A DNA stretch of 30,940 nucleotides from a virus. Below the pieces are notes generated by a model. The model saw nothing but the letters and a program-made list of their open reading frames with translations. It did not search any database and was not told the origin of the DNA. Position numbers and translations under genes: made by a program. Where the stretch lies: IMG/VR virus record IMGVR_UViG_3300032087_000804, positions 1 to 30,940 of that record; one strand, written 5' to 3'. This document shows, piece after piece, positions 1,786 through 30,181 of the stretch (position 1 is its first letter; every line of letters begins with the position of its first letter).

Positions 1786-2031
1786 TTGTCCGACCCCCAA
1801 TGGTATAAGGATTTAAGTCCCAGAGGAAGAGAAGCCGTAGATCAGACTTTGCATTTGATCTGCGGCTTTTCTTTATCTGCACTCGGCGGTGCTTACTCGT
1901 CTGCTGCCGCACTTTACATGAGAGAGTTTTGGCTTCAATGGCCTGTCGAAAGAGTTGCAGACACCAGAAAAGATATGGCTTTTTGGTTGGCTGGAATGGG
2001 ACTTTTTGAAATTTGGAGATACTTTAAATGA
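1786..2031 (+). CDS. Small membrane protein, holin-like position and size
   Basis: Product of 81 residues from a TTG start three bases after the preceding stop. There are two likely membrane helices (about residues 22-46, HLICGFSLSALGG onward, and 64-79, DMAFWLAGMGLFEIW). They are joined by a conserved-looking MREFWLQWPVERVADTRKD. I have seen similar (R)EFWQQWPxxRVxDTxxDxxFW segments in phage membrane proteins but know no proven function. The stop overlaps the start of the signal-peptide protein (ATGA at 2028-2031), so the two are probably translated together. It may be a holin or may help to insert or anchor the exported neighbour. Confidence 0.65.
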   Translation: MSDPQWYKDLSPRGREAVDQTLHLICGFSLSALGGAYSSAAALYMREFWLQWPVERVADTRKDMAFWLAGMGLFEIWRYFK

Positions 2032-4445
2032 TTAAAAACTTTTTGATTTCACTGCTTACGATACTAGCATTTGCAATGCCATCGTATGCAGCGGCTCCGT
2101 CTGTCAAGAAACAAGCGAGGGATGGTGACACCTCCGTTGACTTCGGCATGATGACAGTCGATTTTGTTACTTCAAACACAGCAGGTGTGTACAGCCTTGG
2201 TTTTTCTTACCCGCTATTTTCGCTTGACTGGTCTAATGGAGCTGGGGGCTTTGCTGCTGAGCTTCATGTCTGCGATACGCCGAACGGAGGCGGCGGCGGG
2301 GACTTGAGTGCCAGTGGCGAATGCACGCTTGTTACTGCGCTAGCGACTACGGATTTAACTGTAGAATCTTTTAAGTCCAAGAAGCGTTATATAGTTATTG
2401 AGATTACAACGGCGGGAACTGGAAAGCTCACTATCAAGGGAAGCTGGGACCAAATCAGTAATGCTAGCGATACTCTTACTGGCGCAACGGACGGCAGCTT
2501 TATTTCCGGTATCAACGGCTTGTCTTCAATCGAGTGGGGCGACGGTTACAGAGATATGATTACGGCTTCGGTCACCAGTCCGGGCTGGATCGTAGGCACG
2601 ACGTTTCTCCCCTACTTCAATACGAACGGCGTGAAGGCTAATTGCCCAACTGCCACTTTAGGCGCGGACCCGGCCAAACCGTGGTTCACTTGCCCATCGA
2701 CTGGCCTTCTTAAGACGAAGACATCGGGGATTTTTCTCGATATGGTCAACATGACCCCGAACGAGTCGTGGCCGATTAACCTCGATCTTTACACGGCTGG
2801 AGACACAGACCCCAACGGTATTGGGATTACCATCAAGGCTTCCGGTGGCTCGCAGACCGTGGGTGATGAGGGTGCTAACGGTATCCGCCTTGCGATGAAC
2901 CCAAACTGGGGGAACGCTTTTGGTACAGCCGCAATCCCCGCAAGTACAGGAAATTTTGTTTCCATCCCGTTAGAAGCCGTTTCAACGGAAGACAGTCGGT
3001 ATATAGGCATTGGTAAGCCGCTCGTCTTCTCTGGTTCGTCTTCTGCGTTCACGCGCACGCCTGCTGCACAGCCTCCCTCCACGGTCATCGTTGGCAACGT
3101 GAAATCTGGCACGACTAAAGCCGACTGGACGGTCACTACAACCGTTAACGGAACGGGTATTGAAGCTGATAACTGGTGTGTTTCCCACGACGCCTACAAT
3201 ATCGCCTCCACGCCGGGCACCGGCACGGAGTCCCGCTACTGGCTGAAGATTTCTGCAATCGCGGTGGACGGTTTGTCCTTCACAACGCAATGGTGGTCGC
3301 AAGGCGTAGACCAGAAGTACCCCGACTCGCACCTGTGGTCGCTCGACCCGGACTCTCTTAGCTTTGCCCCTTGCTACACGATCACGGGCGTTTCGCAGAG
3401 TGAAAGCACAAAGCTCGTTGACGCCGTCACGGTCTACAAAACCTCTTCCTACTCCGAAGCTGGATCTGTCGGCTGGGACGTTGTCCCCTACGGTGAGTTC
3501 AAGACCACAGGCGTTAAGGTTCTCCTGAACGCCGACATCAACCCGGCAGGCGCAGGCGCGGCCTTCACGGCACAGAACCAGATTGACTTTCGAGGCCGAC
3601 ATCAGATCACCAACGCCTTCAAGATCGAAGGCGCGAGCTGTGCCACAGACAACCGCGCAACCTCATGCCTCAAAGACGGTACGAAGGGTGCGTTCGCGTA
3701 CGGTCTCGACATCGCCGAGTGGGGTGCCGAGACTGGAGTGCGTTACAAATACTACCAAGGTGGCGACCTCGGTGCCGGTGGTAAGTTTGCCATCATCGAC
3801 CCCCCGACAGCCAACAACGACTGGGGAACCCCCTATGTGGGCATCCCGGTCATCGGCGTGGACGGCGCTCCCGCGAAGTCCCTCATCGTCTCCTCCGACA
3901 AGGGATGGGGCGTGGGCCAGCAGGGCTTCAACCTCGGCCACTTCGCCGTGGTCGATGGCGCTGTGTCGCACACCAACGGAAATATGCTGGTCTGGTCGGA
4001 CGCTGAGGGGGCCTACATCGAGTCGGCCCAGCCGACCCCGCCCAACACCTCGTTCTCGAACTTCCCAGAAATTGGTGACGCCGAGAATGTACTTTACGGA
4101 ACCGGAGACGGACTCACGATCTCCGCGTGGGACTCTTCATATACGGCTACTGATCTTGTTGGAGCTACATACACGGTGAGCCTGCCAGAAATTACGGGAG
4201 CGACCGACATACACAATAGGGTAGAGATCTGGATTGAACCCGGAGTGACATTGACTGTTCAAGGCCATACCAATGACGCAACGGCTTTGAGCTTCAACCT
4301 CATAGCGACCGGCGCAGGCACGGCAAGTATGACGTTCACCGCTGCGGCAAGCAACATCGCGTGCAAGGCTGAAGTGTTTGTGCGAGCGAATAATGCTGTC
4401 ATGACATCTAGCACTTGCCCGACGCAGACCTTAAGCAATCCGTAG
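2028..4445 (+). CDS. Exported, cysteine-paired large protein of unknown function
   Basis: Product of 805 residues. The start has GGAGA at 2015-2019. Residues 1-21 are a textbook Sec signal peptide: basic MIKN, hydrophobic FLISLLTILAFAM, then PSYA with likely cleavage after A21. The mature part is Gly/Ser/Thr-rich and beta-like, with ten cysteines in mostly short-spaced pairs (C82/C99 is the first), as expected for disulfides formed outside the cytoplasm. I see no enzyme motif. Bases 2560-4100 are clearly richer in GC (spot windows 57-68%) than the two ends (42-45%), so the middle looks acquired. It may be a spike-like or cell-surface protein, for example one that blocks superinfection or decorates the host. 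A virion protein with a signal peptide would be unusual. I do not recognise the family. Confidence 0.8.
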   Translation: MIKNFLISLLTILAFAMPSYAAAPSVKKQARDGDTSVDFGMMTVDFVTSNTAGVYSLGFSYPLFSLDWSNGAGGFAAELHVCDTPNGGGGGDLSASGECTLVTALATTDLTVESFKSKKRYIVIEITTAGTGKLTIKGSWDQISNASDTLTGATDGSFISGINGLSSIEWGDGYRDMITASVTSPGWIVGTTFLPYFNTNGVKANCPTATLGADPAKPWFTCPSTGLLKTKTSGIFLDMVNMTPNESWPINLDLYTAGDTDPNGIGITIKASGGSQTVGDEGANGIRLAMNPNWGNAFGTAAIPASTGNFVSIPLEAVSTEDSRYIGIGKPLVFSGSSSAFTRTPAAQPPSTVIVGNVKSGTTKADWTVTTTVNGTGIEADNWCVSHDAYNIASTPGTGTESRYWLKISAIAVDGLSFTTQWWSQGVDQKYPDSHLWSLDPDSLSFAPCYTITGVSQSESTKLVDAVTVYKTSSYSEAGSVGWDVVPYGEFKTTGVKVLLNADINPAGAGAAFTAQNQIDFRGRHQITNAFKIEGASCATDNRATSCLKDGTKGAFAYGLDIAEWGAETGVRYKYYQGGDLGAGGKFAIIDPPTANNDWGTPYVGIPVIGVDGAPAKSLIVSSDKGWGVGQQGFNLGHFAVVDGAVSHTNGNMLVWSDAEGAYIESAQPTPPNTSFSNFPEIGDAENVLYGTGDGLTISAWDSSYTATDLVGATYTVSLPEITGATDIHNRVEIWIEPGVTLTVQGHTNDATALSFNLIATGAGTASMTFTAAASNIACKAEVFVRANNAVMTSSTCPTQTLSNP

Positions 4446-4446
4446 A

Positions 4447-4743
4447 ATGTCGCCTTTAAACTCAGCAATAAACATAACAACTTTTTGGGCTTCCATCGGC
4501 ATTGTAGCCTCTGCCGTCGGTGGCCTTTTCACTATGCAGTTATCTCATACCTCTGCCAATGGACACAGCTCCCTTGCTGAGCAATCTGAAGTTTCTGATG
4601 TAAAGATCAAAATAGAAAGGATAGAAACTGAAGTAAGGCACAATAAAGAGATACTGAACGACCTCAAGACTGACATAAGGCATATCAAAAAAGAGCAGGA
4701 CGACTTCAACAAGGAAGTTTTGGAGGTTATCCGTGGCAACTAG
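4447..4743 (+). CDS. Small membrane protein with long coiled coil
   Basis: Product of 98 residues. An N-terminal membrane helix (about residues 11-31, TFWASIGIVASAVGGLF) is followed by a charged coiled coil at residues 47-95 (VKIKIERIETEVRHNKEI and onward). The ATG lies one base after the preceding stop, with no clear Shine-Dalgarno, so translation is probably coupled. Its end overlaps the start of the head-completion gene at 4733. The plan resembles small phage proteins annotated as holin-associated, but I cannot assign a function. Compare the gene at 148-375, which has the coil first and the helix last. Confidence 0.7.
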   Translation: MSPLNSAINITTFWASIGIVASAVGGLFTMQLSHTSANGHSSLAEQSEVSDVKIKIERIETEVRHNKEILNDLKTDIRHIKKEQDDFNKEVLEVIRGN

Positions 4744-5431
4744 CGGTAGCGTTTCATTTCTCCCTGACGTTGGAGAAATTGCAGAAGAAGCATTTGAGAG
4801 AGCGGGATTGATAATTACTTCTGGTTATGATCTTCGGACAGCCAGAAGGAGCTTAGATCTTTTGCTCATGGAGTGGGCTAACCGAGGTATTAACTTGTGG
4901 TGTGTTAGCGAATACACTCAAGGTTTGGTCGCTGGTCAGGGGCAGTACACCGCAGTTAATTCTTCTCCCAATGTTGCTGTTTCGATACTCGAAGCAGTTC
5001 TCAGGTCCGATGCTGGCGATGCAGACAAGCAAGTCGATTACGATCTAAGCAGAATATCGAGAAGTACTTTTCAAAGCGTTCCGTCGAAGCTCGCCCAAGG
5101 AAGACCAACTCAGATTTACGTTGACAGACAGCGAGGGCAGATCAATCTGAATCTCTGGCCCGTGCCCAACGATTCTACCCAAAAACTTGTCTACACATAT
5201 ATAAGAAGAATGGAAGACACCGGACCCGGAGGCGCTTATGAAGCAGACGTGCCCGCTAGGTTCTGGCCCGCTCTTGTATCCGGTCTGGCCTACAACATCG
5301 CGTTGAAAAAGCCTCAGGTTGCAGACAGAATTCAAATGCTGAAACAAATCTACGATGAGCAGTTTCAGTATGCAGTTGAAGAAGACAGGGAGAAGTCGCC
5401 GCTCAGACTCTTTCCCGGAGGGTACGACTGA
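4733..5431 (+). CDS. P22 gp4-like head-completion / tail accessory protein
   Basis: Product of 232 residues from a GTG start with a strong GGAGG at 4722-4726. It begins with EIAEEAFERAGLIITSGYDL, RTARRSLDLLLMEWANRG and INLW, the pattern I know from the P22 gp4-like family that closes the portal ring after DNA packaging. The usual later block (YTAVNSSPNVAVSILEAVLR, then a basic-aromatic beta region ending in RRMEDTG) is also present. The C-terminal helix (ADRIQMLKQIYDEQFQYAVEEDRE) fits the helical arm of these adaptors. P22 gp4 is 166 residues, so this one is somewhat longer. It is followed directly by the next structural gene (TGA then GTG). Confidence 0.75.
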   Translation: MATSGSVSFLPDVGEIAEEAFERAGLIITSGYDLRTARRSLDLLLMEWANRGINLWCVSEYTQGLVAGQGQYTAVNSSPNVAVSILEAVLRSDAGDADKQVDYDLSRISRSTFQSVPSKLAQGRPTQIYVDRQRGQINLNLWPVPNDSTQKLVYTYIRRMEDTGPGGAYEADVPARFWPALVSGLAYNIALKKPQVADRIQMLKQIYDEQFQYAVEEDREKSPLRLFPGGYD

Positions 5432-6322
5432 GTGGCTTCCTACGCTAAAGGCAAGAAGGCTTTTGGCTTCTGCGACAGATGTGGTTTTAGATACGATCTA
5501 AAGGATCTCAAGTCTGAAACTGTAAATCTTGTCAGCACTAATCTTTTAGTTTGTGAAGAATGTTGGGATCCAGATCATCCCCAGAACATGCTCGGAAGAA
5601 TCAGATACGACGATCCCCAAGCCCTCCGCAATCCCAGACCTCTTGGCGGAATAAGCGGCAGAGATCTTCCCGCTGCCTATAGGTGGGACTTCAAGAACCC
5701 AACGGTCACTATTATACCGTCTGGAGCTTACGCTGGGCTTAGCGTTATTGATGGCTGGTTTGGACACCAGTGCACCATATCAGCCCAAGCGAGCTCTGAG
5801 TCTCTCAGGGTCGATGGTAACAATAGACCAACAGAACTCGGTGGTGATCCGACTATTTCACAGGGGTTTGACTATTCCGGGGAAGGCAACCATCAAAACT
5901 TAAACATAGATACTTCTGTTTATAAGTATGTTGTAAGTTCATTTAGAATAGACACACCTACCGTATTTACAGATAAAAGTCAATTTGTTTTCAATTTTGA
6001 TGGTAGCTTGTTTTGGACAGACCAAACTACTCCGTCTCCGTATCCGTGGTCTGCGGATCGGAGGCAGATTGCAAAACCTTTTCCTTATCTTCCTTTAAGT
6101 CAAGCTGCGTCCGGGTTTTCTGCAAGCGATAAAAATATGACAACAAGGTTTAAACTTGTTTGGGATATGTCTAATGATCCCACTTGGACGGGAACAGTGA
6201 CTGGTTTGAGAATAGATTATATGGACTCTAGGCAAGAACCAAGAGTTGATGCCGATAAAGATTCGGGAATAATTGACGTTGAGTACATAGAAGTTGTGGC
6301 TTTTCACAACATAGATTTATAG
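5432..6322 (+). CDS. Virion protein with N-terminal zinc ribbon
   Basis: Product of 296 residues from a GTG start adjoining the previous stop, with GGAGGG at 5417-5422. Two CxxC knuckles, C14-x2-C17 and C41-x2-C44, with FCDRCGFRYDLKDL between and around them, form a zinc-ribbon-like N-terminus, followed by a DPDHPQ segment. This N-terminus is common in marine podovirus structural genes beside gp4-like proteins. The remaining 230 residues are beta-rich and not recognised (several Asp-aromatic stretches, including WTGTVTGLRIDYMDS). Position suggests a minor head-tail or tail-surface part. The zinc ribbon may hold it to DNA or to the connector. Confidence 0.65.
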   Translation: MASYAKGKKAFGFCDRCGFRYDLKDLKSETVNLVSTNLLVCEECWDPDHPQNMLGRIRYDDPQALRNPRPLGGISGRDLPAAYRWDFKNPTVTIIPSGAYAGLSVIDGWFGHQCTISAQASSESLRVDGNNRPTELGGDPTISQGFDYSGEGNHQNLNIDTSVYKYVVSSFRIDTPTVFTDKSQFVFNFDGSLFWTDQTTPSPYPWSADRRQIAKPFPYLPLSQAASGFSASDKNMTTRFKLVWDMSNDPTWTGTVTGLRIDYMDSRQEPRVDADKDSGIIDVEYIEVVAFHNIDL

Positions 6323-6520: not shown

Positions 6521-7234
6521 TTGATTGCCTACACATTAGATAGTCTTCGCGCTGCAATAGACGAATGGTTAGAAAATGACTTCTGGGGGGATACCGACCA
6601 GAAGGACAACATCATCTCTATGTCTGAGGAGAAGATCTATAAGACCGTAGGCATTGCTGGGTTTAACACGACGACTAAAGCCTTAACATTTAATACTGGA
6701 GTTGGAATTCCCACAACCCCGCTCCCTAGCAGATTAACCGCAGAGTCACCAGTAACTCCAATATCAATGAGATTGCCGGCTGATGGAAACGGGTATTATT
6801 CGTATCTGCTTCTTAAGGACTTTAATTTTTGTACTGAATATTACGGGAATTTAAATGGAACTCCAAAAGTATACGCTTTCTACAATAATGAAGATGATAA
6901 TTACAACCCGTATGTAACAATTTTCCCTCGACCAGACACGAACTACACAATAGCAAACCCTATACGTTTTCAATATTTTTATAAACCTGAGTCTATAACT
7001 GAAGTAACCGGGACTGCCTCCACTTGGCTCAGCACATATGGACAAGAAGCATTGCTCTATGCGTGCATCACAAATGCTTACATATTCATGAAGGGCGATG
7101 CTGACTTGATAAATTTATATGACACCAAGTTCAAAGAGGCTTTGCAAGCCTTGGTGTTTGAGCAAGGTGGCAGCTTTAGAAACCCGGCATACAACGCAAT
7201 GGATGTGCCGAATAGAAGCATGGTGAATCAATAA
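6521..7234 (+). CDS. Adaptor-like head-tail connector protein
   Basis: Product of 237 residues. I accept the TTG start at 6521 because GGGGAAG (6508-6514) lies seven bases upstream and no ATG occurs until residue 34. The N-terminal helices (LDSLRAAIDEWLEND, then IISMSEEKIYKTV) and the C-terminal block (STYGQEALLYACITNAYIFMKG, LYDTKFKEALQALV) match the pattern of phage adaptor proteins such as the SU10-type adaptor, where a beta domain sits between two helical regions. It would join the portal to the tail. The stop overlaps the tail-fibre start (TAATG). Confidence 0.6.
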   Translation: MIAYTLDSLRAAIDEWLENDFWGDTDQKDNIISMSEEKIYKTVGIAGFNTTTKALTFNTGVGIPTTPLPSRLTAESPVTPISMRLPADGNGYYSYLLLKDFNFCTEYYGNLNGTPKVYAFYNNEDDNYNPYVTIFPRPDTNYTIANPIRFQYFYKPESITEVTGTASTWLSTYGQEALLYACITNAYIFMKGDADLINLYDTKFKEALQALVFEQGGSFRNPAYNAMDVPNRSMVNQ

Positions 7235-10155
7235 TGGCGTCTACTTACACAGATGGACTTGGCATCGAACTCATTGGTACTGGCGATAGGGCTGGTTCTT
7301 GGGGAGATGTAACCAATAACAATCTCCAATCTCTTGAACAGAGCATTAGAGGTGTTTCAACGGTAGCCCTTACCGGAACGACCAGCACTCTAAACATTGG
7401 AGATGGCTCTACTGCTTCTGAGACTGCGACGGACGCAGCAGGAAGATCATCTGTAATTATATTTTCTGGAACCTTAGGCGCGACCCATACAGTGACTTTG
7501 CAGGTCGGCGGAACGAATGCGGACAGAGCATCTTTCGTTGCCATGAATGAAACGACGCAAAATGTCGTGTTATCGAGAGGTAGTGGCAACACTGTAACCA
7601 TTCCGAGTGGTTACACAGCGAGAATATTCCTAGATGGAACAGACGCCAGAAACGCCTTAGCCAATCTCAAGCTAGATAAAATCAGATTTGAAAATGATGA
7701 GATAACAAACGCAACGGCAGGAACATTCAGGATTACTGGAGATATTGCTAATCTTGGAGAGTCATCTGGAACTGATGATGTATACCTGACTACTCCATCT
7801 ACAACCAAAGATTTAATTCTACAGACAAATGGAATAACTTCTGGTAGATCCAAGATAGTAATTGATAGCGCCGATAATGGAAACATTGACATAACCCCAC
7901 ACGGTACAGGCTCTGTCGTTATAAGTAAGGCAGATATAAACAGCGGCACTATAGATGGAACCACTATAAATGCTACGTCTGTAACGACATCTTCAGCAAC
8001 AATAACTGGCGGAACTATAAATAATACCATTATAGGCGGAGTGACTCCAGCCGCAGGCACCTTCTCTACTGTAAACATAGATGGTGGAACTATAGATGGT
8101 ACTATCATAGGCGGAACAACTAAAGCAGCAGGCAACTTCTCCACTGTAGATATAGATGGTGGAACTATAGACGGAGCGACTGTAAATACGTCCACGATTA
8201 CAGGCTCCACCATCTCTGGAAGCACAGGCTCTTTTACAACGCTTACCGCAACTGGAACAACTACCGCAGCAGCAATAAACGCATCAGGGAACATTGATTC
8301 TGACGGGGATATAACTGCCAGCAACTTTACGGCAGATGCTAACGGAAATATCTCTACGTCGGGAACCGGAACGATCTCAACCGTCAACGGAAATATCTCC
8401 ACCTCTGGAACTGGTTCAATTTCGTCCGCCTCTACAATCACCGCAGCAACTGGCATCACAGCAACTACTGGAGGCGTAACAGCAACTGCTGGAGGATTGA
8501 CCGTCACAGCGGGCGGAGCGGATATCTCTGGCGGAATAAATAATAATAATGGTGGTATAACAAATGCAGGAAATATATCCGGCGCTGGCACTATAGGCTC
8601 TGGAGCAATTACAAGCTCAGGAGCGATTACAGGCGGAGCGATTACAGGGACTAGCCTCGACGTTGGAACTGGTGCATCGAACACTGTCACAGCCGGGAAG
8701 GTTCTTTCAGGAACTTTAGATCACGCAGCTTCAATCACCTCAAAGATTAGCAATGTAGATAAATTCAACGTAGACGGAAATGGCGCTCAGGTCGTAGCTT
8801 CGAATGGATATTTAAATATGTCCTCTACGTCCGGTGCGACAGGGTTTGGGTTTAGAAACAACAGCGGTTCGCTAGAAATAAAAAATAGCTCGGCCGGAAG
8901 CTGGGGATCTATCGCAGTTCTTTCAGGTTCAAATTTGTCCGTTAGTGGATCTGTGACCGCCGGAACCACTGTAACAGCAACGACCGGATTAACTGTTGCT
9001 GGCGGCGGAGCAAATATAACCGGAAACAGCACGATAGGTGGAACGCTTGGCGGTCTGACTGGCTTAACCGTAGATAGCGGCGGAGCAACGGTTACTGCTG
9101 GCGGGTTAACCGTTTCTGCTGGCGGAGCGACCATATCCGGTAATAGCACACTAACAGGAACCCTCGGTGGGCTAACTGGTCTAACCGTTGCCAGCGGCGG
9201 AGCAAATATAACCGGAAACAGTACGATCACAGGAACACTTGGAAGCCTGACTGGTCTAACTGTTGCGAGCGGAGGAGCAACAATTACTGCCGGCGGTTTG
9301 ACTGTTGATGCTGGTGGAGCAGACATAACCGGAAACAGCTTAGTAACAGGAACACTTAGAGCTACGTCAACTTTAACTGCAAGCTCAGGTCTCAATGTAA
9401 CCTCTGGCGGAATTACCGTTGGATTAGGTGGAATCAATAATGGTAACGGCGGTATTTCAAATGCTGGTGCAGTCGCTGGAGTTAGTACACTTACAGCAAG
9501 CGGGTTAACCACATTTTCTGGACCGAGAGTTGATATAAAAGATTCACTCACTTTCGGCCCGTCAACTTCACAGGCATCAATATATACAAACGCATCGGCT
9601 TCAGCCGGATTAGGTACTGAGCAACTTCGTTTCTACAACTCGTCTGGAGTTGCACTACCCGGCACTACAGGAAAATACTTCAATATAACATCACAGGGAG
9701 GATCTACTGGAGTCGGGTTTAGATCAAGCAGCTCTATAGTAGAAGTAAGATCTAAAGCTACGGCAACAGCAGATAATTGGGGTCGCATCTACCACTCCGG
9801 CATGGTTAGTGGAGATGGTGCTTTCTTTGAGCATACAGTTGCATTAAGCACAATAGGCACTCTACCTCAAGACTATTCAACTACTCATCTTTTAGGAGCC
9901 GAACCAAGGCTTGCAACATTTCTTCTTAAATGCACCGACGCTACCGGAGATCTCGGCTGGTCTCAAAACGATGTAGTGCAAATTGGTTGGTCTGGTTCGG
10001 AAGCTAATAACAATAGTGGCATTTGCCCGTATTTCAACTCAACACAAATTGGCTTTGACACGAATAGTTTTATTTACCTTCAAAATAAAGGATCAATCAA
10101 TAAAGCAGCGATAACTCTTTCGAAATGGTCTGTAATAATGAGGGCTTGGAAGTAA
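7234..10155 (+). CDS. Large repetitive tail fibre protein
   Basis: Product of 973 residues; GGTGA at 7222-7226. Residues 1-40 (YTDGLGIELIGTGDRAGSWGDVTNNN in part) are a virion-attachment opening common in phage fibres. Residues about 215-770 are Gly/Thr/Ser/Ala repeats of two kinds: GGTIDGTxIGGTTxAAGxFSTVxID early, and TGLTVxSGGAxITxGNSTxTGTLG later. Both suit a trimeric beta-helix or triple-beta shaft. The last 200 residues are non-repetitive and end LSKWSVIMRAWK, a kind of C-terminal domain I associate with receptor-binding fibre tips. It is the likely host-range determinant. Long open frames on the opposite strand here are a by-product of the repeats. Confidence 0.8.
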   Translation: MASTYTDGLGIELIGTGDRAGSWGDVTNNNLQSLEQSIRGVSTVALTGTTSTLNIGDGSTASETATDAAGRSSVIIFSGTLGATHTVTLQVGGTNADRASFVAMNETTQNVVLSRGSGNTVTIPSGYTARIFLDGTDARNALANLKLDKIRFENDEITNATAGTFRITGDIANLGESSGTDDVYLTTPSTTKDLILQTNGITSGRSKIVIDSADNGNIDITPHGTGSVVISKADINSGTIDGTTINATSVTTSSATITGGTINNTIIGGVTPAAGTFSTVNIDGGTIDGTIIGGTTKAAGNFSTVDIDGGTIDGATVNTSTITGSTISGSTGSFTTLTATGTTTAAAINASGNIDSDGDITASNFTADANGNISTSGTGTISTVNGNISTSGTGSISSASTITAATGITATTGGVTATAGGLTVTAGGADISGGINNNNGGITNAGNISGAGTIGSGAITSSGAITGGAITGTSLDVGTGASNTVTAGKVLSGTLDHAASITSKISNVDKFNVDGNGAQVVASNGYLNMSSTSGATGFGFRNNSGSLEIKNSSAGSWGSIAVLSGSNLSVSGSVTAGTTVTATTGLTVAGGGANITGNSTIGGTLGGLTGLTVDSGGATVTAGGLTVSAGGATISGNSTLTGTLGGLTGLTVASGGANITGNSTITGTLGSLTGLTVASGGATITAGGLTVDAGGADITGNSLVTGTLRATSTLTASSGLNVTSGGITVGLGGINNGNGGISNAGAVAGVSTLTASGLTTFSGPRVDIKDSLTFGPSTSQASIYTNASASAGLGTEQLRFYNSSGVALPGTTGKYFNITSQGGSTGVGFRSSSSIVEVRSKATATADNWGRIYHSGMVSGDGAFFEHTVALSTIGTLPQDYSTTHLLGAEPRLATFLLKCTDATGDLGWSQNDVVQIGWSGSEANNNSGICPYFNSTQIGFDTNSFIYLQNKGSINKAAITLSKWSVIMRAWK
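8989..9360 (+). repeat. Tandem coding repeats in the tail fibre shaft
   Basis: Imperfect direct repeats of about 75-80 bases encode units of roughly 26 residues around TGLTVxSGGAxITGNSTxTGTLG. At least four copies are visible, some with an extra TAGGLTVxAGG insertion. An earlier array at about 8040-8190 encodes GGTIDGTIIGG-type units. Such repeats allow length change of the fibre by recombination. Confidence 0.7.
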
Positions 10156-10158
10156 TAA

Positions 10159-12885
10159 ATGCCGTATAGAAAAGTCACATTTCCTCCCGGTATAAATAGA
10201 GAAGGAACTCAGTATTCCGCTGAAGGAAACTGGTATGACTGTGACTTGATTAGGTTCAGGCAGGGCAGACCTGAAAAAATTGGTGGCTGGACTAAGTATT
10301 CTCAAAGTGAATTTCTTGGAATATCTAGGAGCTTGTTGAATTGGTCATCCATTCTGGGTGCCAACTTGATGGCCGTAGGAACAGACAAGAAACTATACGT
10401 TGATCTTGGTGGCATCTATCACGATATCACGCCGATGGAGTATAAGTCTCAAGGAACGCTAGACCTTGACATGGCGAATACATCGACCAACACGAACGCG
10501 CAGCTTAGCTTTGACGTTCTTGCTGGTGATGTAGTCAGGATGAGCAGTGATGCAAATTCTGTAGGCGATGAGCTTATGATCGTTGCTACCGGAGGATTAG
10601 CCGGTGCAACCGTCGTGTTAGAGCGAGGCAGCTTCTCTACTATTACGTCAGAACACACGTCCGGGGATGCCGCGTTTCTTTTAGAAAAACTTTCAAACCC
10701 GATATATCCGATCGCAGGGTCAAGTACCGTACTTATAAATTTTGCAAATCATGGACTGACTACTGGGGACTTCATAAACTTCCTCAGCATGTCGTCCTCC
10801 CCTACAGGTCTGGATAGAAGATCTTTATTTTACCCGCTGTTCGACGGAGCTACTAATCCAGCATCTGGATATGACGCAGCGAGGTCAACTCAGAGCTGGT
10901 GTGTAACCAGAGTCTTGGACGGTGACTACTTCGAGATAACTTTAGAGAATTCAGTTACCGGAACTCCAGCAACACTCTCAGCAAGCATATTAAGCTCAGG
11001 CACAACAATACAGCTAAGTGTAAATACTTTTGTAAGTAGTGACTACATCAAGATTGAAGATGAGTATATACAAATAACTAGCGGTCCCTCTGGCGTTGGG
11101 CCATATACATACAACTGCAATAAAGGCCAACTCGGTTCAAGATCAAAGGATCACTCATCTGGTTTGCCAGTCTATCTAGTAGGTGCTTCTGGCGGTCTAG
11201 GCTCCGGCGGCGACACCATCATAATGAGGGACATTCAAGCATCCGAGTCCACATTCGTTGAGTTCAGCGGGTGGAGTGCTGGATCTTGGGGAGGGGTTCC
11301 ATCAGCGACAACTTCGACAACGCTAAGTGCAAACCTAGCCGCTGGAGCAACTGCATCAGCGAACGTCGCAAGCACAGCTAGTTTCCCCTCATCTGGAAGC
11401 ATAATTATAGATTCAGAGGTAATAAGTTATTCCTCAACTACGGGGACTACATTCAACACCCTTACCAGAGGGGACTACTCGACAGTCGATAGTTTCCACG
11501 CCTCGGGATCTTCCGTATTCCTTCTAGATCAATACTGGACAGCTTGGGGAGACCCGACAGTTCCCATAACGAATGACAACTCTAATCTAAATATTTGGTC
11601 GCTCGACACATTCGGAGAAGATCTAGTCGGGTGCAAGACAAGGACGAAGCCATTTTACTGGAACACGTCTTTGAAGATGAGTAATGGATACCCCTACAAC
11701 ACTAGGTATTCAACCTCTTCCCATAGCGCATCACCTAACGGATACGCATCTGGAATCATGCTGTCAGATGCAGTTCCGATGTCGTCATTGGGATTATCAA
11801 CAGATGATGGTCATGGATCTGTTCCCGATCAAGTTGGATTCTTGATGACAAATCCAGCCTCTAGGCAAATTATTGCTTTTGGAGCAACTGATACATTCGG
11901 CAATTACGACCCGATGCTTATAAGATGGTGCGATATTGACAGACCCGGATCTTGGGAAGGAACAAGCTCTAACGCCGCTGGCGGCACGCCACTACAGAAA
12001 GGCTCTAAAATTATCTCGGCTGCTCGCTCTGACAGACAGATAATCGTCTGGACAGATTCATCTATGTACTCTTTGAGTTGGGTTGGCGGGAATTTTGTAT
12101 TCGCACTTCAAGAAATTGCTGATGGAGTTTCTTTAGCTTCTATAAATGCACACAAGGCCGCCAGGGGAATTGTGTACTGGATGGGAGATAACAACTTCTT
12201 TCAAACTGATGGAACCACTGTTCAAAAAATAGATTGCTCTGTGCTTTCAAAGGTATTTGAAGAGTTAAATTACTTCAAAAGAGAAGTTATATTTACTGCC
12301 TCGAATTTGTTGTTTAATGAAATAATATGGTTTTATCCATCCAGAACGTCAAGTGAACCTGACAAATATGTTTTGTACAATTATGTAGATGGTACATGGG
12401 CGTATGGATCTATGCCTAGAACTGCTTGGTCAGATTCCGGCTTGAGGGAAAAACCAAACTCTGCTTACAGCAGAGGTCAGTATTCTTCTGGTGCATATCA
12501 AGGGATCGAAAGATCTATAATTTATAACCAAGAAGATGGGTATAAAGACGACCAGTCAAAAATGGATTCTTACATAGAAAGTGGATACTTCGATCTTGAT
12601 GATGGAGACGAATCTATTTTTGTAGATAGATTCATTCCAGACATAAGAGGTTTGTATACGACTGTGCCTGAGATTGCTGTAGATCTTGTCGCAAAAGATT
12701 ATCCAGCGTCAACCAGAACAACCACTAGATCATTAACTCTCGACCAGTCCATGGAATATGTAAACACAAGAATCCGGGGAAGAACTATGTCGGTCAAATT
12801 CTACGACAATAACAGCACTCGGGAAGAGTCAGGTTGGGAGCTTGGCGACTCAAGGATGCGAGTCAAACCGGATGGAAGAAGATAG
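10159..12885 (+). CDS. P22 gp10-like hub / packaged-DNA stabilisation protein
   Basis: Product of 908 residues; GGAAG at 10148-10152. The opening PPGINREGTQYSAEGNWYD and RFRQGRPEKIGGW is typical of a large marine-podovirus virion family. About residues 555-720 carry motifs like P22 gp10 (FLMTNPASRQIIAFGATD, DRQIIVWTDSSMYSLSWVGG, VYWMGDNNFFQTDG), the hub that plugs the portal and holds the fibres. It is nearly twice the length of P22 gp10 (472 residues). Part of the excess is two similar inserts at about residues 275-340 and 385-460, each with an IxIxxExIxYxS strand pair, a Gly-rich turn, an RG or LGSR element and a His near the end. The stop overlaps the next start. Confidence 0.7.
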   Translation: MPYRKVTFPPGINREGTQYSAEGNWYDCDLIRFRQGRPEKIGGWTKYSQSEFLGISRSLLNWSSILGANLMAVGTDKKLYVDLGGIYHDITPMEYKSQGTLDLDMANTSTNTNAQLSFDVLAGDVVRMSSDANSVGDELMIVATGGLAGATVVLERGSFSTITSEHTSGDAAFLLEKLSNPIYPIAGSSTVLINFANHGLTTGDFINFLSMSSSPTGLDRRSLFYPLFDGATNPASGYDAARSTQSWCVTRVLDGDYFEITLENSVTGTPATLSASILSSGTTIQLSVNTFVSSDYIKIEDEYIQITSGPSGVGPYTYNCNKGQLGSRSKDHSSGLPVYLVGASGGLGSGGDTIIMRDIQASESTFVEFSGWSAGSWGGVPSATTSTTLSANLAAGATASANVASTASFPSSGSIIIDSEVISYSSTTGTTFNTLTRGDYSTVDSFHASGSSVFLLDQYWTAWGDPTVPITNDNSNLNIWSLDTFGEDLVGCKTRTKPFYWNTSLKMSNGYPYNTRYSTSSHSASPNGYASGIMLSDAVPMSSLGLSTDDGHGSVPDQVGFLMTNPASRQIIAFGATDTFGNYDPMLIRWCDIDRPGSWEGTSSNAAGGTPLQKGSKIISAARSDRQIIVWTDSSMYSLSWVGGNFVFALQEIADGVSLASINAHKAARGIVYWMGDNNFFQTDGTTVQKIDCSVLSKVFEELNYFKREVIFTASNLLFNEIIWFYPSRTSSEPDKYVLYNYVDGTWAYGSMPRTAWSDSGLREKPNSAYSRGQYSSGAYQGIERSIIYNQEDGYKDDQSKMDSYIESGYFDLDDGDESIFVDRFIPDIRGLYTTVPEIAVDLVAKDYPASTRTTTRSLTLDQSMEYVNTRIRGRTMSVKFYDNNSTREESGWELGDSRMRVKPDGRR

Positions 12886-19926: not shown

Positions 19927-22900
19927 ATGGCTTGGCTTGAGAACGAACCGAATGGCATAGAGTTACCTGACGGGAAGGTAATATCGTTTCCTGCTGGTAT
20001 CACGAGAGAACAGGCTTATCAACAGCTGATGCAGGAGAGACCTGATCTTTTCGAAAAGCCTTCTGGTTTCTTCCCTGCTGCTAGATCTACGGTCACGCGA
20101 ATGGCCGGAGCCTTATCTGCGGCACCGTCAACAGTTCTCGGTGGCTTTGGCTCTCAAGAATCTTTAGACGAAGCCGGACGGATATACGAAGAAACAAACA
20201 GAGCAGCTGCGGAGATTCTGCCTGAGCCTGTCGAATACACAGATATCTTTGATGATTACGAGAAAAAAGGTTTAGCAGACGCAGCAAGCACCGCTTGGAC
20301 ATTCGCAAAAGAACAAGTTGGCATATCTACTCCGTACATGCTTCCCGCGATGGCTGCTGGCAAGGTCGGGGCTTCGGATCTTGTAGCTAAAACTAAACTG
20401 GGACAAAAAGTTGGCGCTGGCCTTGCTAGGCTTTTGCCTGTCCTCAGGGCCGGAGCAACCGCTTCGCCTCATCCTTTAGCGAAGGCTGGATTTGGTGCAG
20501 CTTTCGCTATCGGAACTCTCGCCACTCAATTCTTTGCAGACAACCTCGAGCGACAGTATGAAGTTGCCTCTGAAGGTGGGCAAAAAGATGTAACGCCGGA
20601 AGACATAAACAACTTTGCTGCCGCTGCCGCCGCCGGTCCGCAGGCAGCAATGGACTACATATTCATTGCCTTGACCGGAGGCATTGGTCGTGGCGCTCAG
20701 CTTGCGGCGACCCAGAGCCTTAAACAATCCCTTGCCGCCACCACCACGCGAGCCGGGAAAGAGACATTATCAAAGACTATCGGCAAGGGGGCCTTAGAGT
20801 CATTAACGGAATTTCCTACGGAGTTGATGCAAACGGTACTCGAAAGAGCGCAAGCTGGCGAGTCTATCAGCTTAGATGATGTTGGATTTGTTGATGAGAT
20901 GAAAGCAACTGTAGCCGGAACCATCCCTGTAGTGGGAGTTTTCGGAGCTGCCGGTACATACAGGTCTCATCGAGCAAATAAGAAAGCTGAAGAGAACTGG
21001 AATAAAATGTCTGATGCCGAAAGGAGGCTCAGAAAAAGTCAGGACTCTCAGAGGGAAGCTGCTTATCAAGCTGAAATAGAAAGAGCAGAAAGGATTCAAT
21101 CGGAGAATGAAAATCGTTGGAGGTTAGCTAACGAAGAAGCTGGCAGAAACAACGATACAGTCAGAATGGCTGGACTTCAGGCTCAAGAGAACACTCCTGT
21201 AGAGATAGCAGATGTCATAGAGGCTGCTGACTCCAGAAACATTCTTACGAATACAGACGGGTTTAGGGCTTTTGTATTACGGCAAACGAACGGCAGGACA
21301 GCAAACTTAAAAGATACTGACAACAAAGAAAGAAGAAAGATTAGATCGGTACTGTCTGGCCTGAAGGTTCAAGAGTACGTCGAAGAAGATGGCGGAGCGG
21401 ACATGCCTATGTTCACCCGAGCGCAGTTCGATGCTGCCGTGAAGGGAACTCGAAAGGCTAAGTCGATTAATGGAGACACCGTTCGCCAAGTTCTGGGAAT
21501 GGGGAACTCCAAGACTGACAGAGCCGTTGCTTCAAGTATTGTTCAAGCGTTAGAGACTAGAGGATACGCTCAAAGAGTTAGTCAGAAAGATAGAAAGAAA
21601 CCTCTAAAGCCCAGAAGAACTCCCTACACAGAGAACCAGTACGAAGAACTTCTTAGAATCGGCCAAGAGAATGGACGAATAACTCAGGGTGATTTTGAAA
21701 GTGTGACTGGTAAGTACGGTGCAGAAACGTACAAGGAGTTTATCTCTGACATGCGGGTCAGGGGAGACCTCCCTAAGACTGATAAAGTTAAGGGCATGTT
21801 TACGCCTGTCACTTATCAGGACATTCAAGAAGCTGATGACGGAAGGGCTTTAAAGGTTGGTGACTACGAAGTCACTACTGAGCCCTCCGAAGGTTACTTC
21901 GTTCGTAACGCGAACGGCGAGATTGTAGACGGTGCGATTAATAGAAAAGAAGCCATCAACTCCGCTAAGCGTTTGAAGCATCGGAGCAGAAGCTACACCG
22001 TAAAGAAAAACGGACAAGAAATAAAAACTTACAAGAACAAAAACAACGCTAAAAGTTTAGCAGAAGAAATTGAAACTTCTGATCCGGGCGCAAGGGTGGA
22101 AGTTTTATCGAATCAACCTGTTGATTTCGCAGTAGACAAGAATAAATCGAGTGGGTTCGCAACGATTGAAAGAGTGAACGAGGAGGGGAGAACAACTTCT
22201 GTTCTTGAATACGGATTTGCTCCCGATGAAAACTCCGCAAACATTCTTAGAGACGAAAGAATTTCAGAACTCACTCCCGGTCTAGCTGACTGGGATGTTC
22301 GAAGTGCTGAAGAAAAATCTCGCGCCCGCGAAAGACTCGCCGGTTTCTTCAGGGCTCGCGGAGCCAGACTAGATCCAGCGTTAAGGGAAGAGTTCGCGAC
22401 AGCGGAGGAGCTTCCGAGCTTTGCCCCTGAGAGAAGAATCGAAGGCGATCAAACTCAAAGGAATCAAACGATTCTTAAAGAGCTTGAGCAAGCTTTAGTT
22501 GATGCCGGTGTCAAGAGTGACGTAGCCGCAAAGGTAATCAATGAGTCCGTAAATGCAGAAGGATTCTTTGACCCCAACCTCGGCGGGCTTCGGACTATTG
22601 CAATCAACTTAAACCACCCGACTGTCAGGAATGCGACAACGGATGCAGAGATCCGTCAGGCGGTGAGAGATGTTGTAAATCACGAAGCTATCCACGCCAT
22701 GAGAGATCTAGACTTGTTCACGATGAACGAGTGGAGAGCATTAGTTAATGCGACTTACAGGGTCAAGCGGAGCGATGGTAAGTCATTTAGCGAATGGGCC
22801 GAAGAAACCTATAAAGGCGTAAACGGTTACGAAACTGAAGAATCTATTCAAGAAGAAGCTGTCGCTGAAATGTACCGGCAGTTCTATTCAGATAAGAATG

Positions 22901-25900
22901 TCAGAAGACAAATTGCTGGTCGTCCCCGGACTCTGCTTGAGCGCATCCAGAGATTCATGGAGAAACTTGCCAATGCGTTCAGCGGTATCGGATTTGCTGA
23001 CGCCTCGCAAGTTATCAGCAATATCGGAACTGTTCAATCTAGAGAAAGAAATCAGATCAGGACTCTTAAGGACACCGAGGAATCCTCTGCTCAACAAGCA
23101 AGAATAATCAGAGGCGAGATTGCAAGAAGGCAGGCAGATTCCGAGCAGCCTGAAGAAAGAAAAGTCAACAAGACTTTAAAGCGTCACTCGATCACCAGCC
23201 AGAAAATGCTTGGAGAGTTTGAAAGAAGAGAAGAAGAGTCAGACTCTGCATACAAGCAAGAGCTTATTAAGGAGATGTCTAAACGGTCTGTTGCGGGTGA
23301 CAGCTCTTACTTACTCGAAGTGCCCGGCGGTTTCGTTCCTGCTGACATGACAGCAAAGTTCTCTTTGAAGTTAGACAGCATGACGGATTCAGACTTAAAT
23401 TTATTGAGCGACACTAGATATACCAGAAGGCTCATGCAGGCAGCGGGCATAAAAAATTCTGGCTCCGTTGACAATTACATGCGTTTTGCAAACGCAATTA
23501 ATAGAGCCGTAAGAAATATAGTAAAGGGTCAAAGAGTAGAAGATCGAAGAATTCTCAACGTAGACGACAATCCCATGGAGGGCGAAGAGTTAAAGAGCCA
23601 AATAGAAACTTTAGAAGCTGAATTACAAAGTGTAAAAAACACTAAGTCAAGAGAGCTGCATAGGCCACAGTATGGTCATGGATTCTTATATAACGATTCT
23701 ACCATCCCACTTCAAGAAGGGGTAATTCAGGAAGTAGAAAAACTTAACGGATTTGCTTTTGAAAATGATGGTCATGACATGGGATATCAAGAGCAAAGCA
23801 CTATCTTGACAAGTGAATTCGAATTCTCTGGAGACTTAAAGCAAGAGTATGATTTGAATGTTGAATTAGTCTTAAACACACTATCCGAAAGAGATTATAC
23901 TTCGTTCAATAAAGGACATCTAATTGTCTCAGCGGTTCAAGAAGAACTTGAGAATGGTTCCATATCATTTATAAAGCCAGCTATAGAATTTGGTCACGAA
24001 AACCATCTCCCGATGGAAGCAAGAGCTGTTGTGGTTCTTAGCGACTATGGAAAACTTAAGGATTTAATTGACTCAGGAAAAACTCCAAGCGCCGTAACTA
24101 TCGCGTCGCTCCATAAAAGGTATGTAAATCCTATAATAGACAGCCTCAAACACACCGGCTCTTCGACGCAAGCTAGGCTTATTTTGAGAAGTTTAGATAA
24201 CTCAGAATTGGCTATTAACTCTACGATGAAGGGCTTATCGGATGAAACGCCAAGATTTTTGGAAGGTTACAAGGCTGTCTTGGAATTTTCCGAAACGTAT
24301 TTCGACAACAAGTCAGCAGGTGTTGAAGGTTTAAAACAAAGCATAGAAGAAATAGTTAAAGATAAAGACAATCAATGGGACAATGGCCCACGCAGCATCC
24401 AAAACTTCACCGGGTCTGTTCTGCAAACTCCCGTAGAAAGAGCCCATGCGGCTATCTTTAAGTATATCTTTGAAAGCACTACGCCAGCTACAAACATGCC
24501 TACCTTTAGAGGTACAACTCTTTCTAGATTTTTATTTGACATTTCTTCAAGGGATGAAGCTGGCGCACTCGGGGGCACAACTACCTACGAGGAAGCACTT
24601 GATTGGGCGAATGAAAGAGCGGTAAGCAGGACAATATCTATAGACGGAATTGGAGAATTATCTTCTAAAATAGAAACGGCTGAAGATGACTTTAATGATG
24701 GTCTTCTTTTTGTATTACCTGCTGGAAACGTGCGCGCCCAAACTCCTGCTCACATGCAAGAGCAAGCAAGAGGTTTCGACTATGAAGCTGGATTGTTTAC
24801 TAGCGGAACTTTTGAAGTAAAAGAATTTTATCCTTTCAAAAATGCTTTAGAGTATAACGACTTAGTAATTAATGTTCTAGGTCGGCAACTAATGGAGATG
24901 GCTGAGCAACGAATGGCAGTGAGTAAGGGAGAAAGATCAGATCAAGATATTTATGATGGAGTATTTCCATTAATAAATAAATCTTTTAGCCCAATGAGTA
25001 ATATAGATTCTTTGGAAAGTTGGAAAAATTCGAACGATTATATTATTCCATTTCTTTCTTATCGCACACGATCTAACAATACTAAAGATTTAGAGACTAA
25101 AATATTCAAAGCACTTTTATTGAAAGGACTTTCATCATCTGAAGATTCTGCTTCAAAAATCGTTAAGTTAGATGAAGATGGTAAATTAGAATTTGATATT
25201 GACTGGTATTACGAATGGAAACTCAACCAGCCTTCTGTCAGTTTTGAAGAAGAAGAAAATTCTCTTATCCGTACAATTCTATTTAGAGCAATTACTGGCG
25301 ATAAAGTAAACGGCGCGTACAACCGTAAGCTATTTAACGCTTTACACACGATGGTTTCTATAACTCCTCCAGTTATTGACCTAGAAGCACTTCCAGATTT
25401 AGAGGGTTTCGTTGATGGCAATTTTTATTATTGGAGTAACTCACCCCAAGAACTTTTAAAGAAAGCAGCTGAAGATGCAAATGTTTTTCACTATAGAAAA
25501 GATGATGATGTACCTTCGGCTCAACGCGGACGTGGCGTCAAGGGTGGGTTCGTCGTACTTAATCAATTAGATAATGATATGAAGAGCTTTGGGGCAAATT
25601 ATCTAGCATCCAAAGACGCCGTGAAGGAGAGAGCCCCCGTTATAGGTTGGACTAGGAGCCCGAAATGGTCGATTGTTAACGTAGACGAGGGCGGATTCCA
25701 ACAGGTTGGGAGCCAAACTGGATCAAACGCAGGTGGAATGTATAGAAACGAAGACACCGGGGAGCAGTATTACGTTAAGACACCGAGAGATCCTGATATC
25801 GGGAGAAACGAAATTCTCGCTAGTAAGCTGTACCAGCTTGCCGGTGTCGAAGTCGCTGACGCTAACCCCGCAGTAAGGAACGGCGAGTTTTCTGTAGCCT

Positions 25901-28900
25901 CTTCGTTTGTTCCCGGTTTAGAGATGGATGAAGATCTTCTTGCAAGCGAGAGAGTGCCGGGCGTGCAAGAGAACTTTGCTGTCGATGCGTGGCTGGGGAA
26001 CTGGGATGTTGTTGGGCTTGTGTTTGACAACCTGCTTATCAAGGAAGGGCGCGGGGTTAGGATTGACCCCGGCGGCACGATGGCTTATCGCGCTCAGGGC
26101 GGGCTGAAGAATGATATGCGAGCAGGTCTCTGGGGTCCGGAAGCTAACGATATAGATTCCATGAGAGACATGAATATTGCCCCGGAAGCCTCTCAAGTCT
26201 TTGACAAGGTTACAGACGAAGACTTAGTAAAAGGCATTGACAAGGTTCTTTCTATTCCTGTTGATGATCTTCGCAAAGCTGTTAGCGAATTTGGCCCTGT
26301 TGACCCAGAAGAAAACGAAGAAGCGTTCAACATCCTTGAAGCAAGGAGAAGGGATCTAGCTTCTCGCAGGGCAGATATTGTCGGCGACAGCAGCGCCGCA
26401 GCCCAGTTCACCAGCACGGGCCAGCCCGGAAGAAAGTTCTCCCTGAACGATCTTCAGTGGAAAGACAAGGGTACCGCAAGCCAAGAGACTAGCTCTGTCG
26501 AATCCTTCTCTCCTGATAAGGCGATAGAAAAGGTCTCCGAGTCTACGAACGAAAGGGGTCGGGAGAGAGATCGCAAAATAATTAGAGCGATGAAGGACTT
26601 TAAGACTTCTCCTGACTTTGACATAACCGAGATTACACCTAAGGAGTGGGGTCCGATAGAGAATATATCTAGCCCGTCTTACGGTGTCATGGTCAAAGAT
26701 GATAAGGATAATATCGTATTAAGAGAAGTCGAAAATTCATTTAAAGGATACAACTGGAGCATAGCCAAGGGCAAACTCGACCCCGGAGAATCCCCTCTTG
26801 AGACTGCACTCAGGGAACTCAAAGAAGAGACTGGGATATCTGAAGACACTGTTCCGAACTTCAGAATCATTGGAGCTTTGCCGGGTCCGTACTCTTCAGA
26901 TGAAAGCGACACTTATTTCTATGTCGCACAGTTCGATAGCCAGACTTCAGATCAAGGAATTTCTAAATTCGGAGATGACTTAATCAATAAAACTCCGGGC
27001 TTTATACCTAGAATTTCAAAAGAAAAGTCAACGGTTTCAGCTGACCAGTCGATCATGGATAATATGTCTATACCGATTGCGCTAGGAGAAATGAAGCCTC
27101 GTAAACTTTCATTATCAAATGAGAAGCTAGTGGAGCTTACCATAGATACAGCTCGGACAAAGGGCGATAGATCTTATGACGTTCTCCACGCCACGATAAG
27201 CCCTCCGCCTGTCCATAAGAGTCTTTGGGAATCTGTAAAAGACGTACTATCGGACAGGCCTCTTGCTTGGTTTAGGCAGAAGTTTATAGACAAGTATGAA
27301 GGAATACGAAGAGCTGTCGAAAAAGCTAGAGAAATTAGAGGAGATGAAAGCTACATGCTTGCTGGCATGGACGCGCTCAAGGCTGCGTACTTATCAGACA
27401 AGTCTAAAGGCATAGTTCAAGAAGCCATTACATCGGGAAGGTTGGTCTACAGGGATGGAATAACCCGAGTGGATACAAACGAAAAGGGGCTTATCGAAAT
27501 ATTACAGCCTCTGTTCAAAGGGGAAGTTGACCTCCTTAGAGATTGGCATGTATGGAAGATCGCAATCAGGGAGGGGAGATTTGAAAAAGAAGGCAGGATG
27601 GTCTCGATGTCTGCCCAAGAGAGACAGACCGTCATGGATACAGCTCAGGCTAACGGCTGGACAGAGCTGTTTGAATCTGTAGATGCAGACTACAGAGAAT
27701 GGAATGATGCAATCGTTGACTACATGAAAGACACAGGAATTATCAACGACAGCATGGGGGAGGTCTTCAAGAAATACGGAGACTACATAGCGTTCTATAG
27801 AGAGTTCGAAGGCGAGGCGGATGAAAGACTCATAGCTGGAATGCAAGATCTCATAGGGGAAGAGCTTGCCCAGATGGAAAGAGATGGACGGATGCCGCCC
27901 ATGAATGCTGCCCAGAAATCCAGAATGCCTTCCTCTATGTTTGGCTCCTTGACTGGAGCGAAGCCGCCTCGCAAGGCAAGGGGCGGAGATTCGATGGTTG
28001 TCGATCCGCTTACTGGAATTATGCGAAACCTAGAAGCGGCTGTCACCAGCGGAATGAAGAACGTCGCAGCAACTAGAGTGATGGACGACGCTGTTCTCAT
28101 TGGAATGGCAACAGAAGTAGAGCCTAGTCAAGTAAGAGCAGACACTCACTCTGTAAGAATGGATGGAGAAGATAGATACTTTAATGTTTTTGATCCGCTT
28201 CTGCATGACTCTCTCGCTGGGATGGCCGAGGGGCACATAAAGTATTTGAACTTCTTTTCCGCTCCCGCTCAGTTCCTTAGGGAAATGGTCACTCGAAGCC
28301 CTGACTTCATCATGGCAAACTTACTCAGAGACTCCTTGTCCACTTGGACTACTGCCGGTGGTACAAAGCCTGTCATAGACACGATGAGAAGTTTCTTTAG
28401 CGGAGAAAACGATTCTTATCAGACCCTAAAGAGCGCAGGGATTATCAGCGGATTTGACAACGCAAGGACAACTAAAGATCTTGTCAAGAAGTTTACTAAG
28501 AAGTTGAAAGAAGAAGGGCAGATGCCGGGGAAGAAGATTCCATTCTGGTCTTCGGCTACAAAGCTGTGGGATTGGAGTGGTGATGTATCCACTAAGTCTG
28601 ACGCAGCAACAAGACAAGCGGTCTATGAAAGCGTTCTTCAAGATCTATTAGAAAAAGGATTCACGAGAGGCCAAGCGGAATCGGAAGCTATCTATCAGGC
28701 GGCTGAGGTGATTAACTTTTCTAGAAGAGGAAACTCTGGACTAGCGAAGATAATCACTGCCGTTGTTCCATTCCTTAATGCAAGAGTGCAAGGCTTAGAC
28801 GTTTTGTATCGAGCAGGGACAGGTAAGTATTCTACCGTAACGAACGAGACTCGAAACAAAGCACTCATAGGATTTTTGAGTAGAGCTTCCCTGCTAGCTA

Positions 28901-29860: not shown

Positions 29861-30178
29861 ATGACAGTATTAAAATTAAAACACGACGTGTCGATGAACG
29901 GGGTCAAGCCGGAGCTTGTCCTTGGCCTGCAAGTTGCGCTTGGATATTTCTGGTCGATGGGTTTGCAAGACATGGTTGTCACATCACTGTGTGATGGAAA
30001 GCATTCGCCAAACTCATTGCACTACGTCGGCTACGCAGCCGATCTGCGGATTTGGGCGATAGAAGAAAAGGATTTAGTTGAGTTCACGGAGGGCTTAGCT
30101 ATTGAGCTAGGTGACGAGTTTGATGTTGTTCTCGAAAGAGATCATATACACATCGAGTTCCAACCTAATAAGAGGTGA
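29861..30178 (+). CDS. M15-like peptidase, probable endolysin
   Basis: Product of 105 residues. GKHSPNSLHYVGYAADLR and VVLERDHIHIEF give the zinc site of the M15 peptidase family: H54 and D61 in the SLHxxGxAxD pattern and H97 in HIH, with E92 or D94 as the likely catalytic acid. These enzymes cut peptide cross-links in peptidoglycan. It is a minimal catalytic domain without a cell-wall-binding part or signal sequence, so it probably depends on a holin for release. It opens the lysis cassette, just before a small membrane protein and the spanins. Its ATG has no clear Shine-Dalgarno and lies four bases after the giant gene. Confidence 0.8.
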   Translation: MTVLKLKHDVSMNGVKPELVLGLQVALGYFWSMGLQDMVVTSLCDGKHSPNSLHYVGYAADLRIWAIEEKDLVEFTEGLAIELGDEFDVVLERDHIHIEFQPNKR

Positions 30179-30181
30179 AAA

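Follow-up and report, generated by a model that had tools for sequence, protein, structure and literature searches.

Among the described systems closest to the locus analysed here, modular tail spikes, such as those of P22-like podoviruses, share its layout of a constant N-terminal domain and an exchanged C-terminal module, some of the alternative modules being right-handed beta-helices. In the usual view, the particles of tailed phages are finished inside the cytoplasm. The Pam1-like head modules of DSL-LC04, Pag-Yong1, HTVC023P/027P and CRP-901 contain a homologous major capsid protein (56–70%) and stabilization protein, and the cement protein is homologous as well in DSL-LC04 and CRP-901. 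Moreover, phages encode proteins that leave the cytoplasm: exclusion proteins of the T5 Llp/Cor type are small exported lipoproteins, and HTVC023P gp45, of an Asn/Thr-rich family found in several phage types, is a signal-peptide protein of the late block. The gp45 gene (L036, 23481–24137) lies in the structural block, and related genes occur in phages of Pelagibacter and Roseobacter, the 141-kb Mosig EXVC030M among them.

The sequence analysed, hereafter the window, is the whole stretch of 30,940 nucleotides of IMG/VR virus record IMGVR_UViG_3300032087_000804 (positions 1 to 30,940). It encodes an 805-aa protein in which a predicted Sec signal peptide precedes a fixed front and a swappable back half, and this combination of export and modularity has no match in the databases searched.

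Genome Context

The genes surrounding the one for the predicted exported protein are arranged as follows:

1351–1782, + strand: capsid cement protein, with homology to the protein annotated as cement in phage DSL-LC04 (phmmer E 1.8e-23)
1786–2031, + strand: 81-aa membrane-protein-like gene with a TTG start and a 4-base overlap with the exported gene
2028–4445, + strand: whole gene of the predicted exported modular protein, 805 aa, 10 Cys
4447–4743, + strand: 98-aa protein with an N-terminal hydrophobic segment and a coiled coil (weak DUF2730), directly downstream of the exported gene
4733–5431, + strand: portal adaptor-like protein (SU10_adaptor, E 1.2e-8)
6521–7234, + strand: second adaptor-like protein (SU10_adaptor, E 1.8e-13)
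7234–10155, + strand: 973-aa repeat-rich tail-fibre-like protein without a signal peptide, a candidate ordinary tail fibre judging from its sequence
10159–12885, + strand: P22 gp10-like "packaged DNA stabilization" tail protein

The P22 gp10-like gene places the virus among the P22/Pam1-like podoviruses, and its product is related to the stabilization proteins of DSL-LC04, CRP-901 and others. A close relative that reaches further upstream (L033) carries the portal and major capsid protein genes followed by the genes of the window, and its capsid protein is 56–70% identical to those of Planktothrix, Pelagibacter, Roseobacter and lake phages. This order, together with the genes of the window, puts the exported gene between the cement and portal adaptor genes, two genes past the start of the cement gene. 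The 81-aa gene and the exported gene are also paired in L010 (73% identical), and the 81-aa gene is absent beside the homologue of L017. The 973-aa protein has no family match in profile searches.

Several other features of the window were observed. The cement gene (1351–1782) is chimeric, being 92–97% identical to L007, L008 and L009 until about position 1466, with identity then lost until about 1745–1760. At 5432–6322 lies a second constant-N/variable-C gene with a CxxC...CxxC zinc-ribbon-like motif at its N-terminus, and the segment 5682–6284 has no DNA match in L002, L003 and L005, both flanks being 85–95% identical. A 3309-residue protein (19927–29856) has zero cysteines and carries an LPD38 and a NUDIX domain. 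The lysis cassette at 29861–30727 comprises a peptidase-like gene with a SLHYVGYAADLRIW motif and an i-spanin-like ORF (30358–30645) that overlaps, out of frame, an o-spanin-like lipoprotein ORF (30470–30727), these names being given without a supporting family match. In view of this peptidase-like gene and the overlapping spanin-like pair, a lysis function for the 805-aa protein was rejected.

Signal Peptide and Relatives

The ORF at 2028–4445 is real; it starts with ATG behind a GGAG ribosome-binding site and shares four bases (ATGA) with the gene before it. It is divided as follows:

2028–2090, + strand: predicted Sec-type signal peptide, residues 1–21, cleavage after SYA
2091–2470, + strand: conserved N-terminal domain (N-domain), about residues 22–147, predicted eight-strand jelly-roll-like beta sandwich; Cys82 and Cys99 invariant in all relatives, including L017
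2471–4442, + strand: exchangeable C-terminal cassette (C-module), about residues 148–805, replaced in one piece in relatives; the blastn match breaks off at 2477 and identity is back at 4446

The predicted signal peptide, MIKNFLISLLTILAFAMPSYA^A, shows the full n-h-c pattern, with the n-region MIKN, the h-region FLISLLTILAFAM and the cleavage motif SYA^A after residue 21, as had been proposed earlier. Signal peptides were called by a heuristic score and not by SignalP, and the score of this one is equalled or exceeded in 0.025% of shuffles of the protein's own first 45 residues. In a heuristic scan of the late block, from which a low-scoring internal TTG start within the 3309-aa ORF was left out, the 805-aa protein was the only convincing signal-peptide protein, apart from the lipoprotein-like ORF 30470–30727. 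Besides the signal peptide, no second hydrophobic segment of membrane-span grade was found in the protein, which would thus be soluble once cleaved. There is no lipobox cysteine after the signal peptide (SYA^A), the first cysteine being residue 82.

A search of IMG/VR returned ten relatives, two distant ones (L016 and L017) and one sharing the C-module only (L027); independent relatives amount to about six C-modules and two N-domains, all of them uncultured. The signal peptide is kept in ten of ten relatives of the close set. In the most diverged of these, L010, 38% of its residues differ and the pattern is kept, with a dN of 0.23 and a dS of 1.44 relative to the window (21 codons, the dS being rough), and, on the basis of heuristic calls and dN/dS, the signal peptide with its SPase I site is conserved under purifying selection. 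L017 has its own, dissimilar signal peptide ahead of a related N-domain and carries the same head genes. L027 likewise has its own, dissimilar signal peptide, followed by an unrelated N-domain and the same C-module as the window; this module is 54.6% identical over 551 aa to that of L033, 41% to that of L031 and 41% to the window's. Since the L027 contig carries tail tube and tape measure genes, it belongs to a different virus type. Three dissimilar signal peptides are therefore found, in the window family, L017 and L027, and the strongest case that computation makes for functional export is that both modules occur with independent signal peptides.

The surroundings of the two outlying homologues contain other genes of interest. 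In L017, the homologue is flanked by a small, dockerin-like signal-peptide protein (2361–2621; Pfam E 3e-4, just under the cut-off) and by a further signal-peptide protein (7305–7679) that is the start of a second beta-helix-like protein. In L027, a Cys-rich GDSL-hydrolase-like gene (1–843; Pfam E 0.015), truncated at its 5' end, and a 336-aa protein without a family match (3378–4388) lie beside the C-module relative. The L027 N-domain and the second exported gene of L017, used as queries, retrieved no further contigs.

The earlier note had suggested superinfection exclusion or receptor masking. Under such a reading, the exported protein would bind or destroy the phage's own receptor on the infected cell and thereby keep its progeny, or other phages, from adsorbing; the outcome would be like that of T5 Llp and the logic like that of influenza neuraminidase. 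An exported protein with the receptor-binding-like variable C-module described below would be specific to the receptor of the phage itself, and late expression beside the head genes would suit the shielding of progeny from debris. However, the protein has no lipobox or membrane anchor that would hold it in the envelope, Ala and not Cys following the cleavage site, and profile libraries including PADLOC gave no match to known exclusion or defence proteins. Moreover, the gene is located in the late head block and not in an early or lysogeny region, and an N-domain tied to the capsid gene lineage would not be needed for exclusion, which seems unlikely as the function of this protein.

Cysteines and Predicted Disulfide Bonds

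The ten cysteines counted earlier are confirmed at residues 82, 99, 206, 222, 384, 449, 538, 547, 779 and 797. Their description as mainly near pairs applies to four of the five pairs (spacing 9–18) and fails for 384/449, which are 65 residues apart. Cysteines represent 1.28% of the mature protein versus 0.24% in the other 17 predicted genes, a five-fold enrichment (Fisher p = 1e-4). Among the complete relatives, the mature counts are 10, 10, 12, 12, 22, 8, 22 and 10, every one of them even, that of L017 only after dropping one Cys inside the signal peptide. The invariant Cys82 and Cys99 lie at facing ends of consecutive strands in the predicted N-domain model, and all eight cysteines of the window's C-module align with those of L027. 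This pattern suggests that the 805-aa protein folds with disulfides. The earlier proposal of export and disulfide bonding is reinforced by the three dissimilar signal peptides in three lineages, the even mature Cys counts and the conserved Cys positions.

The same features bear on a more ordinary explanation, namely, a head or tail spike of the virion that keeps its hydrophobic N-terminus uncleaved, either buried in the particle or touching the membrane on entry. The location of the gene between cement and adaptor genes would agree with it, the constant-N/variable-C layout is that of virion spikes, and in Alcaligenes phage QDWS535 a beta-helix-like protein (judged by eye) that lacks a signal peptide is encoded between the head genes and the holin. 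Nevertheless, every N-terminus, over three dissimilar sequences, shows the full n-h-c pattern and a cleavage motif of small residues, the Cys enrichment and even counts set the protein apart from the other virion genes of the window, and a separate tail-fibre-like gene is present at 7234–10155. Given the cleavage motifs and the cysteine pattern, an uncleaved virion spike is disfavoured and appears quite unlikely.

Exchange of the C-Terminal Module

The DNA of L005 and L006 is 98% identical to the window over positions 1–2477, has no match over 2478–4445 and is again 92–93% identical from 4446, where the next gene starts, so that the exchange is precise almost to the base; further unrelated C-modules follow the same N-domain in L008, L009 and L010. 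A constant N-terminal domain with an exchangeable C-terminal module, as in a modular receptor-binding protein or tail spike, is thus present, and this cassette exchange fits the adhesin that was among the functions proposed earlier. The C-module of L017 passed TIGR03804 (23.2 bits, cut-off 19.45), which indicates a right-handed beta-helix, and that of L009 has weak matches to the starts of galacturonidase/galactosidase beta-helices. For the window's own C-module no family was detected in profile searches, and the full-length structure model, built from eight sequences, has a pLDDT of 33; therefore, its putative glycan binding is taken from the swap partners. A 3C-like proteinase matched by the C-module profile (E 0.008) was discarded, since the match was lost once L027 was added. 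Residues 690–731 of the L004 protein and 583–624 of the L010 protein form the same Cys-rich cap, CxCDxT...MHxPATACF (52% over 42 residues), and since this cap is shared by different middle modules, the C-module itself is composite.

The N-Terminal Domain

In the close family, the signal peptide and N-domain are kept to about residue 147, with the closing motif KGSWDQ. Modelled alone from seven sequences, the N-domain forms an eight-strand jelly-roll-like sandwich (pLDDT 75.5, pTM 0.72), the name "jelly-roll" being taken from its fold matches. Structure comparison returned many jelly-rolls without a clear winner (best Z 7.8). The best phage match, the trimeric cement protein of Helicobacter phage KHP40 (7dou_4; Z 7.6, rmsd 4.2, 99 aligned), is tied with picornavirus capsid proteins and near disulfide-linked spore appendage subunits, with unrelated jelly-rolls at par, and it is a hint only because a Z under 8 can reflect a common arrangement. 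No sequence match of the N-domain to a cement family was found in Pfam, PHROG or PDB sequences, and a profile match to "SHP of VP1" (9in6; E 1.1) was discarded. The cement proteins of Pam1, KHP30 and GP4 are trimers on the capsid surface, which shows the form that a docking site could take and no more (PMC9698820).

The N-domain of L017 is about 45% identical to the window's over residues 52–155, and in two diverged lineages, those of L017 and L033, the N-domain is accompanied by the same set of head genes; the capsid proteins of these two are 67% identical, and two further head-region proteins are shared as well. This co-occurrence, and the different N-domain of L027 in another virus type, would be expected if the N-domain were matched to the particle and the C-module to the target. 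Simple gene linkage alone could also produce the co-occurrence of N-domain and capsid.

These observations also concern the possibility of a freely secreted enzyme or adhesin, acting for the infected cell or the phage population (e.g., in matrix degradation) with no link to virion or receptor, the N-domain serving in carbohydrate binding or secretion. Many carbohydrate-binding modules have jelly-roll folds, CBM6 is one of the N-domain fold matches, and the Cys-rich, GDSL-like neighbour in L027 (E 0.015) and the further exported dockerin-like and beta-helix-like genes in L017 would be in line with free secretion. However, a generic binding module would not be required to stay with the head genes, as the N-domain does in two diverged lineages, and free secretion of this kind seems highly unlikely.

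Proposed Function

The best reading of the 805-aa protein is a modular adhesin or glycan-degrading protein for use outside the cytoplasm, similar to a receptor-binding protein but apparently exported. The signal peptide would direct it via Sec to the periplasm, with cleavage after residue 21, as judged from sequence and conservation, and the cysteine pattern points to disulfide-bonded folding. The constant jelly-roll-like N-domain would dock to a partner that does not vary across the virus lineage, the simplest candidate being a phage product, and the exchangeable C-module would bind host-surface or extracellular glycans, which beta-helix versions may also cut. Thus, the protein would work like a tail spike or receptor-binding protein delivered from outside the cytoplasm. 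For the reading as a whole, namely, a late-expressed, disulfide-stabilised, exported target-binding protein docked via its N-domain and acting with its C-module on glycans, we estimate a probability of about 0.58.

The protein most likely acts when the cell lyses or later, either free in the lysate or on released virions, and less probably as a housekeeping envelope protein, and it may have a role as secreted adhesin or depolymerase or a virion-associated one. Against this explanation, a periplasmic protein would still need to cross the outer membrane before lysis. A doubtful but conceivable extension is that outer virion spikes are made by export, the disulfide-bonded spike passing through Sec to the periplasm and, at lysis, docking by its N-domain onto capsids assembled in the cytoplasm, with the N-domain matching the head and the C-module the target. 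Of the earlier interpretation, predicted export, disulfides and the adhesin stand, and superinfection exclusion or receptor masking found no specific support.

The 805-aa protein has no match in Pfam, PHROGs, NCBIfam, PADLOC or INPHARED phage records, the best E among PDB sequences being 0.15, and it adds a family without a match in Pfam, PHROGs, NCBIfam, PDB sequences and the phage record collection searched. Neither the N-domain nor the C-module retrieved a relative in scans of GTDB genomes, and these scans therefore do not point to a host. The titles and abstracts of the literature on signal peptides of tail spikes and on exported virion proteins contained nothing bearing on the matter.

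Comparison with Known Systems

In the head–tail regions of the cultured Pam1-like relatives examined, profile searches found no homologue, and no large exported protein was present. In phage ct7L0027 (L024, 1050–3850), several signal-peptide-like ORFs, one of them annotated as nuclease-like, lie upstream of the stabilization protein. The T5 Llp/Cor exclusion lipoproteins are also phage-encoded and exported and may act at the host surface, export of the window protein being predicted; however, they are small lipoproteins, whereas the window protein is large and has no lipobox. HTVC023P gp45 differs in its 218 aa, in its unrelated sequence and in that no modular C-terminus is seen. Unlike modular tail spikes, the window protein has a conserved, predicted Sec signal peptide and many conserved cysteines, and its gene is located behind the cement gene, with a separate tail-fibre-like gene and with a putative virion attachment.

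The locus would thus represent an exported protein with receptor-binding-type modularity beside capsid genes, whose predicted export is kept in two virus types. If true, either interchangeable spike-like proteins are used by phages beyond the cell, as a tool in their own right, or some parts of the virion are added after lysis. For exported proteins in late phage blocks, HTVC023P gp45 is a precedent, and what is new here is the union of receptor-binding-type modularity with conserved export.
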